This document shows, piece by piece, positions 734 through 4,195 of a DNA stretch of 64,000 nt. The translations under genes and the position numbers were made by a program. Each line of letters opens with the position of its first letter. Positions within the stretch are counted from its first letter, which is position 1. This DNA comes from Actinomycetales bacterium. GTDB taxonomy: Bacteria; Actinomycetota; Actinomycetes; Actinomycetales; Microbacteriaceae. Under the pieces are notes generated by a model. It made no database searches and was not told where the DNA came from. It worked only from the letters and a program-made list of their open reading frames with translations. The DNA lies in NCBI GenBank assembly GCA_015655445.1, contig JAATFA010000033.1:1-64000 (forward strand), in the 5' to 3' direction.

Positions 734-927
734 AGGCGTACTGCTTTCTGGTCGAGGTGGTCGTGGATCCCGCTCCGGTGGGAGTTCCGGGCCGGTGGCC
801 GGAACGCCGCGGTGGAGGGCTCAACTGCGGTCGCGCTCGCGCGGTCGGCGCGCACGCAACCTCCATAGGTTAGTCGACGCCTGCGGGAGCGGTCAAACGA
901 GCGGCGCCGCGCCGTCAGACCCGCACA

Positions 928-1279
928 ACGAAGGAGACCGCCCGCGAGAGCGGGGCTCGCACCCCCGAAAACGAAGGAACGGGTCGACGATACGAAGGAA
1001 CGGACGGCCGGAACGAAGGAACGGACGGCCAGAACGAAGGAACGGACGGCCAGAACGAAGGAACGGGGCCGCCGAGAACGAAGGAGGCGACGCCGAGAAC
1101 GAAGGACGACGTGGCACCGCAGATGTGCGGATCCGCCATCTGCGGGAAGCCGGCGGCACGCTACTGCGCTCAGCGGCCGCAGACTCCTTCGTTTTCGCTG
1201 ACCAACTCCTTCGTCTCGGCGGCCCCGTTCCTTCGTTCTCGGCCGGCCGTTCCTTCATTTTTGGCACCCGTTCCTTCGT
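928..1279. repeat. Head-to-head array of about 21-22 bp spaced ACGAAGGA repeats (8 in + orientation, 5 in - orientation) around a central palindrome
   Basis: ACGAAGGA at 928, 971, 992, 1013, 1034, 1055, 1078, 1099; inverted TCCTTCGT (one copy TCCTTCAT) at 1185, 1207, 1229, 1251, 1272. Extended unit approximately ACGAAGGAACGGACGGCCaGA. Confidence 0.92.
1117..1145. repeat. 29-bp near-perfect palindrome at the centre of the repeat array
   Basis: CCGCAGATGTGCGGATCCGCCATCTGCGG; arms differ only by one extra base around a central GGATCC. Confidence 0.85.
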
Positions 1280-1332
1280 TGTCGGGGGAACGAGCCCGCG
1301 CTGCGCGGGCGCGCTTGGACGGGAGCCGCGAC

Positions 1333-2202
1333 TCAGGCCGGCGCGGAGGGGAGCGTGCGCATGGCGCGCGTCTGCTCGGCGCGCGCGGCGAGCGCCGCCT
1401 CGTCCGGGTAGCCGACCTCGACGAGCCGCAAGCCCTTCGCGGGCGCGACGACGAAGGCGCTCGTGCGCTCGAGCCCGTCCCGCAGCTCGACGAGCCGCGC
1501 GGGCGCGAGCCGGCCCTCCCCGACCGCGATCGACGCTCCGACGAGCGCGCGCACCATGCTGTGGCAGAACGCGTCCGCGCGCACGTGCGCGACGAGCACG
1601 CCGTCCGCGTCCCGCCGCCAGGAGAACTCCTGCAGCGTGCGGATCGTCGTCGCCCCCTCCCGCGCCCTGCAGTACGCGGCCCAGTCGTGCAGGCCGAGCA
1701 GCCCCCGCGCAGCGGCGTCCATCGCGGCGACGTCGAGCGCCGTCGGGTGCCAGAGCGTGTACCGGGAGGCGAGCGGGTCGTGCGTCGCGGCGGCATCGGC
1801 CACGCGATACTCGTACCGGCGCCAGACGGCCGAGAACCGCGCGTCGAAGCCGGCGGGCGCGATCGACGCGCGCGCGACGTGCAGGTCGCCGCGCATCCCC
1901 GCGATGCCGTTGAGACGTCGCGCGAGCGCGTCCGGCCCGCGCGGCGCGAGCCACGAGCGGCCGCCGCGCAGGGGGCGGTCGAGCGACGCGAGCTGCTCCG
2001 CGGAGAGGTCGAGGTGCGCGACCTGGCCGCTCGCGTGCACGCCCGCGTCCGTGCGTCCGGCGACCGTGAGCTGCGGCGCGGGCGGCACCCGGCGGAAGAT
2101 CGTCGCGAGCGCCTCCTCGAGCTCGCCCTGCACCGTGCGCAGTCCCGGCTGGCGCGTCCATCCCGAGAATCCGGACCCGTCGTAGGCGATGTCGAGGCGC
2201 AT
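1333..2202 (-). CDS. truA: tRNA pseudouridine(38-40) synthase
   Basis: MRLDIAYDGSGFSGWTRQPGLRTVQGELEEALATIFRR...LTVAGRTDAGVHASGQVAHLDL; internal start in ORF 1333..2652. Confidence 0.95.
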   Translation of the reverse strand: MRLDIAYDGSGFSGWTRQPGLRTVQGELEEALATIFRRVPPAPQLTVAGRTDAGVHASGQVAHLDLSAEQLASLDRPLRGGRSWLAPRGPDALARRLNGIAGMRGDLHVARASIAPAGFDARFSAVWRRYEYRVADAAATHDPLASRYTLWHPTALDVAAMDAAARGLLGLHDWAAYCRAREGATTIRTLQEFSWRRDADGVLVAHVRADAFCHSMVRALVGASIAVGEGRLAPARLVELRDGLERTSAFVVAPAKGLRLVEVGYPDEAALAARAEQTRAMRTLPSAPA

Positions 2203-2260
2203 CCGCGTGGAGGTGTCACCCGTCACGCGAGCGAGTCTAGGCTGGCCTCGGACCGGATCC

Positions 2261-4195
2261 ATGAGCACGAGCACCCTCGCCCCCGACACCGGCCGCCTGC
2301 CGCAGGTCGTGCCGTCCAAGCCCCGCACACGCGACCACGTGGCGGGGCTCGACGGCTTGCGCGCGCTCGCCGTCGTCGCGGTGCTCCTGTACCACCTCTC
2401 CCCCGGCTGGCTGCCCGGCGGATACATCGGCGTCGACCTGTTCTTCGTCATCAGCGGCTTCATCATCACGACGCTCCTGCTGCGCGAGCGCGAGCGCACG
2501 AGGCGCGTGCACCTCGGCGAGTTCTGGCTCCGCCGCGCGCGGCGCCTGCTGCCCGCGGTCGTGCTCGTCGTGCTCGTGTGCGGGGCCGCGGCGTTCGCGA
2601 TCGGCGGCGACGTCGTCGTGCAGCTCGGCTGGCAGGTGCTCGGCGCCCTCACCTTCAGCTACAACTGGGTCGCCGTGGGCGCGGGGACGAGCTACTTCGC
2701 CTCGACGACGCCCGAGCTGTTCCGGAACCTGTGGTCGCTCGCGGTCGAGGAGCAGTTCTACCTCGTCTGGCCGATCGCGCTCGGCGTGCTGCTGCTCGTC
2801 CGCTCGCGCGCCGTGCGCATCGCCGTGCTCGCCGCCGTCGCGGTGCTCTCCGCGCTCGCGATGGCGCTCCTGTTCGTGCCCGGATCGGATCCGACACGCG
2901 TGTACTACGGCACCGACACGCACAGCTTCGGCCTCGCGCTCGGCGCGATGCTCGCGTTCGTCTGGCGCCTCTATCCCGAACGGCCCGCGTGGAGCCTCCG
3001 CGCGCGGTTCTGGATGTGCGCGGCCGCGCTCGCCGCGCTCGGCGGCCTCGTCGCCCTCGGGCTCTGGATGCCGGAGGACGGCACGCTCACCTACCGCGGC
3101 GGCCTCCCGCTCGCCGCGCTCCTGAGCGCGACGGTCATCGCGGGCGCCATCGTGCCCGCGGGCTGGCTCGGCCGGGCGCTCGACCTCGCGCCGCTGCGCT
3201 GGGTGGGCGTGCGCTCGTTCGGCCTCTACCTGTGGCACTGGCCCGTGTTCGTGCTCTTCTCGGCGGCCGAGCCGGACTGGACGCGCTCGCCGAGCGACCG
3301 GTGCATGCTCGGCGGCGTCTCGTTCGCGATCACGCTCGTCGCGGCGGTCCTCTCCTACCGCTTCGTCGAGACGCCGATCCGGCGCCTCGGTTTCCGCGCG
3401 TCCCTCGCCCGCTTCCGATCGTGGGCGATCGGCTCGCCGACGCGTCTCGTCGCGGGAACGACCGCGATCGTCGTCGCGCTCACGGCGACCGCGCTCACGG
3501 CAGGCGCGATCGCCGCGGACCCCGGGCAGAGCCAGGCGGAGCAGCAGATCGAGCGCGGCATCCGGGCGATCGAGCACTCGCCGAGCCCGACGCCGCGGCC
3601 CGCGGGCGCGACCGGCACGGCCGGCGCGTCGGTGCCCGCGCCCCCGCCGTCCGCTCCGCCACTGCCGGGCGGGGACGAGATCACGGCGATCGGCGACTCC
3701 GTCATGCTCGCCGTCGCGCCGTACCTGCAGCAGGCGTTCCCCGGCATCGCGATCGACGCGGCCGTCTCGCGGCAGATGAGCGCGGCGCCCACGCTCATCC
3801 AGGCGCAGCTCGACGCAGGCACGCTGCGGCCCATCGTCATCCTCGGCCTCGGGACGAACGGGCCGTTCGCGCGCTCTCTGCTCGACCGCATCGTCTCGAT
3901 GATCGTGGATCGCGAGCTCGTGCTCGTCACCAACCAGGCCCCGCGGCCGTGGACGTCCGGCAACAACGCGATGCTCATCCAGGAGGCGCAGCAGTTCCGG
4001 CAGGTCGAGCTCGCGAACTGGCAGGCCGCGGTCGCGCCGCACCTCGACGTGCTCGCGCACGACCAGATCCACGCGGGCGGCCCGCAGGGCGGCGCGATCT
4101 ATGTCGATGCCGTGACGGGCGCACTGCAGCGCCTTGCCGAGCTGCCCCCGCTGCGGAGCGTGCACGAGTACGGGCTCGCGCCTCGACCGAGCTGA
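2261..4195 (+). CDS. OafA/YrhL-type acyltransferase with C-terminal SGNH-like domain
   Basis: HVAGLDGLRALAVVAVLLYHLSPGWLPGGYIGVDLFFVISGFIITTLLLRE plus multiple TM segments and C-terminal GDSVMLAVAPYLQ...VILGLGTNGPF. Confidence 0.92.
   Translation: MSTSTLAPDTGRLPQVVPSKPRTRDHVAGLDGLRALAVVAVLLYHLSPGWLPGGYIGVDLFFVISGFIITTLLLRERERTRRVHLGEFWLRRARRLLPAVVLVVLVCGAAAFAIGGDVVVQLGWQVLGALTFSYNWVAVGAGTSYFASTTPELFRNLWSLAVEEQFYLVWPIALGVLLLVRSRAVRIAVLAAVAVLSALAMALLFVPGSDPTRVYYGTDTHSFGLALGAMLAFVWRLYPERPAWSLRARFWMCAAALAALGGLVALGLWMPEDGTLTYRGGLPLAALLSATVIAGAIVPAGWLGRALDLAPLRWVGVRSFGLYLWHWPVFVLFSAAEPDWTRSPSDRCMLGGVSFAITLVAAVLSYRFVETPIRRLGFRASLARFRSWAIGSPTRLVAGTTAIVVALTATALTAGAIAADPGQSQAEQQIERGIRAIEHSPSPTPRPAGATGTAGASVPAPPPSAPPLPGGDEITAIGDSVMLAVAPYLQQAFPGIAIDAAVSRQMSAAPTLIQAQLDAGTLRPIVILGLGTNGPFARSLLDRIVSMIVDRELVLVTNQAPRPWTSGNNAMLIQEAQQFRQVELANWQAAVAPHLDVLAHDQIHAGGPQGGAIYVDAVTGALQRLAELPPLRSVHEYGLAPRPS

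Follow-up and report, generated by a model that had tools for sequence, protein, structure and literature searches.

The window, the whole 64-kb stretch of DNA that was analysed, carries on its minus strand rplM (ribosomal protein L13; 287..733) and truA (tRNA pseudouridine synthase; 1333..2274, start codon uncertain), and the gap between these neighbours holds an array of inverted, helically phased boxes around a palindrome (914..1294). The array lies between the truA stop codon (1333) and a promoter-like site of rplM, TTGACC-N18-TAACCT (867..896, minus strand; a consensus reading, with a similar layout in relatives).

Eight plus-strand ACGAAGGA boxes form the left half: box 1 (CAACGAAGGAG) at 928..935, followed by boxes at 971..978, 992..999, 1013..1020, 1034..1041, 1055..1062, 1078..1085, and, innermost, 1099..1106, with step sizes of 43, 21, 21, 21, 21, 23, and 21 bp. 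The right half comprises five inverted boxes, the innermost at 1185..1192 and the others at 1207..1214, 1229..1236, 1251..1258, and 1272..1279 (minus strand; step sizes of 22, 22, 22, and 21 bp). The first-pass annotation had described eight and five boxes at these spacings, and this was borne out, with one inverted copy, that at 1251, reading ATGAAGGA with one mismatch. Exact ACGAAGGA occurs 14 times in the window, 12 of them inside the array, compared with a shuffling expectation of 0.93 (sd 0.90); 14 copies were reached in 0 of 100 shuffles. In the genome-wide family described below, the box extends beyond ACGAAGGA to CCGAAAACGAAGGAG.

The near-perfect 29-bp palindrome CCGCAGATGTGCGGATCCGCCATCTGCGG, which had been placed at the point where the two halves converge, was confirmed at 1117..1145 as a single occurrence in the window, and its centre lies ~15 bp away from the array dyad. 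It belongs to an enlarged core, the innermost pair of boxes being 88 bp apart (10-mer starts) compared with 65–66 bp in simple units. The two halves are complementary in register, as had been suspected of the arms, with 1052..1077 pairing perfectly with 1214..1239 over 26 nt, and the RNA fold of 914..1294 gave z = -13. With 13 boxes and the enlarged core, this array is the largest such site seen in the source genome.

A structured leader of the L13-S9 operon had been proposed as one identity of the array. We rejected an rplM (L13) leader RNA, since the promoter-like site (by consensus reading) separates the array from rplM, placing it upstream of the likely rplM transcript and outside the leader; other genomes of the bacterial family keep a short rplM leader of similar layout without any array. 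That leader (734..858, minus strand, upstream of rplM) is conserved and probably structured. It consists of GAGCCCTCCACC, a variable GTTCC...GGAAC hairpin, and GGAGCGGGATTCACGAAC, a layout common to 24 aligned genomes, and a comparison of the window with Rfam returned nothing for it even at E <= 1. Two Rfam miRNA models matched the array only on account of its long inverted repeat, with scores well short of the gathering thresholds, and the loci of relatives returned one tRNA only.

The truA-rplM gap of G001, a genome of the same genus, and of the other readable relatives (24/26) is ~140–290 bp long and has no array. Because of this absence, the array at truA-rplM is read as a local expansion in the source lineage. 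The truA of Homoserinibacter G411 (G411:C1:1537429-1538295) was matched as four overlapping pieces, which suggests frameshifts or sequencing errors.

A dispersed family of extragenic elements

The boxes also occur outside this locus, contrary to what a chance duplication or assembly artefact would predict: with up to one mismatch, GAAAACGAAGGA gave 84 matches in the source assembly (G000; 2.96 Mb, 86% complete) and one match for the reversed control. The basic unit is CCGAAAACGAAGGAG, ~53 bp, and CTCCTTCGTTTTCGG, that is, two inverted boxes. The source genome contains 31 simple units, with 10-mer starts 65 bp apart in 12 and 66 bp apart in 19, and six arrays, located on contigs C100, C109, C135, C169, and C178 and at truA-rplM (C119). 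The extra boxes of the arrays mostly step outwards by 21–23 bp, and steps of 32, 43–44, and 53 bp also occur.

Box positions are nearly invariant among the source-genome units, whereas the identity of unit pairs does not exceed background (median 0.52). This contrast favours selection on the boxes over recent copying; a few locally related copies were found (C129, C128, and C57). We rejected a recent MITE, whose copies would be alike over their full length, and the suggestion of a recent non-autonomous mobile element is likewise disfavoured by unrelated spacers between near-invariant arms. A CRISPR array was also rejected, as in the first-pass annotation, since the boxes are 8–15 bp long, stand in two opposing orientations, and are dispersed over many loci.

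The elements are nearly always extragenic, many of them lying 15–60 bp past a stop codon. Among 87 elements of other genomes with both neighbours called, 28 were flanked by gene ends on both sides, 41 by an end on one side and a start on the other, and 18 by starts on both sides; these are raw counts from rough gene calls. Placement at gene ends is thus a tendency and not a rule, with 18/87 between two gene starts.

Dialects and genomic distribution

A covariance model (R1) detected elements in 61 of 400 sampled genomes, all of the same bacterial family; 11 candidates were scored per genome, so that per-genome counts are lower bounds. A degenerate pattern run over 85,488 species matched 71 stretches, and every genus-level name was in the Microbacteriaceae (Galbitalea, Rhodoglobus, Lacisediminihabitans, Glaciihabitans, Salinibacterium, Marisediminicola, Homoserinibacter, and Frigoribacterium), with some records carrying only higher-rank names.

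Relatives spell the box differently (CGAAGGAG, CGCAGGAG, CGACGGAG, TGCAGGAG, and TCGAAGGGG), with both arms altered together; changes between genomes were two-sided in 9 of 15 paired columns. Each dialect is uniform within a genome, as in Galbitalea (CGA in 32/32) and Rhodoglobus RYN_70 (CGC in 17/18), and no genome mixed CGA and CGC within what the search pattern could show. When 400-kb samples of two genomes were searched for inverted repeats without a preset motif, the family was recovered in the local dialect. At G158 L217, behind a GlxA-type gene, a further dialect, GAGTTCAGGAGC, was observed with unchanged spacing. This suggests that the present models, whose E-values are rough, fail to capture more distant dialects and underestimate the size of the family.

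Copy number ranges from 0 to >70 per genome, and the same-genus G001 has only a few weak matches, which indicates that the element system is not essential. The densest genome seen was G342, where all 150 scored candidates on C1 matched, corresponding to >70 elements.

Elements of different dialects occupy the same orthologous place. The site directly 3' of the GlxA-type gene was occupied in 10 of 21 genomes, with at least five dialects represented there; this site was selected because two genomes had an element there, and two of the ten were scored by eye. Other shared places include ppa-tilS and lpdA-deoD. For the elements of the source genome, neighbours were shared with other genera at 3 of 27 entries, two of them beside one gene, and a LytR-type gene was added by eye, so the positional conservation of these elements is weak. 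Since elements adjoin the gene of the GlxA-type AraC regulator in several genera, we considered this regulator as the cognate protein and rejected it: orthologues occur in the element-free G007 and in G003 and G008 (no element by R1), none was found in the element-bearing G170, G022, and G114, and the DNA-binding helices do not track the dialect.

Strong clustering of elements was observed in one syntenic region of two genera (G305:C1:1706487-1924149 and G029:C49:68631-122480), whose genes include DUF58, GlxA, manA, purE/purK, lpdA, and deoD. Clustering was seen in Galbitalea contig 7 and in G305, and elements were spread in G342 and G411. In G099, which starts at dnaA, the listed elements lie at ~0.64–0.66 and 2.29–3.04 Mb, with none listed from 0.66 to 2.28 Mb. 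The pattern in G099 is suggestive, but given the spread in G342 and G411 and ambiguous skew data, we do not claim confinement to one part of the chromosome.

Spacing and helical phase

The arm-to-arm spacing is 63–65 bp (11-mer starts), usually with one preferred value per genome, and was 64 bp in 41 of 43 units from Galbitalea contig 7 and G305. The helical phasing noticed in the truA-rplM array was significant over 41 same-strand spacings from nine loci, with a phase R of 0.755 at 10.7 bp that was equalled by 0 of 20,000 random sets. The core variants also remain in register, at 76 bp (C178) and 88 bp (C119) compared with 65–66 bp.

The spacers have no conserved sequence, and their A/T content oscillates with a 10.5-bp period, showing maxima at approximately positions 11–12, 21–23, and 31–33 from each arm and values of ~0.1 between them. 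Compared with within-spacer shuffles, and with the four bases beside each arm dropped, the 10.5-bp power gave z = 17.1 in Galbitalea, 11.6 in G305, 18.0 and 8.9 in the CGCAGGAG genomes, and 7.8 and 9.6 in the source genome. The test is not circular because these six sets were selected by their arms only. Outside the arms, the A/T profile is flat.

No covariation between left and right spacer halves was detected in Galbitalea or G305. The source genome showed mild left/right covariation in the six bases inside the arms, possibly owing to copies that are related to one another.

Possible function and comparison with known systems

The truA-rplM array is the largest member of a dispersed family of extragenic DNA elements, and we propose that these elements are probably docking sites for a putative sequence-specific protein that bends or wraps ~75 bp. 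A DNA-binding nucleoprotein site, already among the hypotheses of the first-pass annotation, is the best reading of the phasing, spacing, and dialect data. The near-fixed spacing, phased A/T content, expansions that stay in register, and dialects that change in concert point to a protein complex holding both boxes. Such a DNA-binding protein would grip one box at each end, probably as a symmetric dimer or a higher oligomer, and the ~75 bp between the boxes would bend or wrap around this protein or around a helper, for example actinobacterial IHF or HU, with the minor grooves of the A/T steps turned inwards. Arrays would be bigger particles with boxes added on the same face; their spacings show extra boxes added outwards in helical register.

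The role of these particles is less certain. Our best guess, weakly supported, is that they may be fixed nucleoprotein nodes at gene ends, acting in insulation, supercoil constraint, or chromosome folding; such a role is preferred to a promoter switch, given how many units lie past stop codons. The dialects imply that the specificity of the protein would shift, with the dispersed sites following in concert. We only tentatively extend this to a sequence-encoded, nucleosome-like bacterial particle, in which a dedicated putative protein might wrap ~75 bp between species-specific boxes at tens of fixed extragenic places, its shifting specificity dragging all sites along and so producing the dialects.

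Among the observations that run counter to the protein reading are the variable copy number, the source-genome covariation inside the arms, and the complementarity of the array halves beyond the boxes; a hairpin would explain the last two as well. Transcribed units could fold, as RNA or single strands, into long stem-loops with a role in transcript termination, in mRNA protection, or as substrates in dsRNA form, and this would fit the strong predicted folding (z = -2.9 to -9.9 for eight simple units, besides the value for the array), the covariation of arms between genomes, and the many units past stop codons. However, a symmetric protein predicts the same arm covariation, the favourable folding energies stem largely from arm complementarity, ~53-nt loops are unusual for terminators, and a fixed length with a 10.5-bp A/T period would be meaningless for a loop. 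Because the left and right spacer halves do not covary in two genomes and do so only weakly in the source genome, we consider a hairpin unlikely as the selected form.

Patchy occurrence, variable copy number, inverted ends, and the few locally related copies would suit miniature mobile elements, either non-autonomous transposons or REPIN-like elements with an arm-reading transposase, whose nested insertions would give the arrays. We regard this as very unlikely, since the spacers are unrelated and yet phased, differing dialects stand at one place, viral contigs gave no match to the elements, and a Y1 (RAYT) transposase (PF01797) was found in 0 of 9 genomes, including G000 (86% complete), compared with 5 of 14 control genomes. 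The least probable of the three alternatives is that the elements are strong DNA gyrase sites like BIME-2, with A/T-phased DNA wrapped by GyrA behind genes and the boxes read by a partner. In its favour, the GC content of the E. coli gyrase motif varies with a 10.75-bp period, which is attributed to wrapping with the minor grooves of A/T facing in, and gyrase sites include some BIME-2 elements (PMC6379681); placement at gene ends would also fit the removal of positive supercoils. However, that motif is 130 bp long and periodic on either side of a 36-bp centre that is aperiodic, whereas our elements are periodic over ~75 bp and flat outside, and a universal enzyme would leave the dialects and patchy occurrence unexplained.

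If the docking-site reading is true, a group of Microbacteriaceae has nucleoprotein sites of exact architecture distributed over the chromosome, in which DNA bending is encoded by phase and geometry, not by sequence. The species dialects would then be a natural experiment in which a protein and dozens of dispersed sites shift specificity jointly, a change usually studied in restriction systems, uptake sequences, or recombination hotspots. The elements were not found in Rfam, the arm sequences retrieved nothing relevant from full-text literature, and we found no publication on them in the open literature (subscription papers lay outside the search); a family of ~80-bp elements in one bacterial family is thus provisionally regarded as undescribed so far.

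Among dispersed chromosome-organising sites, matS/MatP, Noc sites, and parS are single short palindromes. They share with the present elements tens of motif copies per genome, but the latter pair two boxes at a distance of about six turns on phased DNA. The enterobacterial BIME/RIP elements (REP pairs, of which some include an IHF site; in part from PMC2817692 and PMC6379681) are likewise extragenic, with tens of copies and inverted boxes, and are protein-binding (putatively so for the present elements) and often behind genes. By the definition of BIME/RIP, our elements qualify in being extragenic with boxes in opposing orientation, but these boxes are not palindromic REPs, their spacing is nearly fixed, the spacer is phased and not conserved, and the spelling is genome-specific. 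REPINs with RAYT transposases (PMC3116915) also combine inverted pairs of short repeats, species-specific spelling, and extragenic location. In contrast to them, the present elements lack the REP hairpin, CCGAAAACGAAGGAG having no internal dyad where REPIN/REP sequences form an imperfect palindrome, and their spacers are unrelated between copies. The E. coli gyrase motif (PMC6379681) shares the 10.5–10.75 bp alternation of A/T and G/C that is read as wrapping, but the present elements cover ~75 bp instead of 130 bp, have no aperiodic centre, and carry conserved boxes at their borders.
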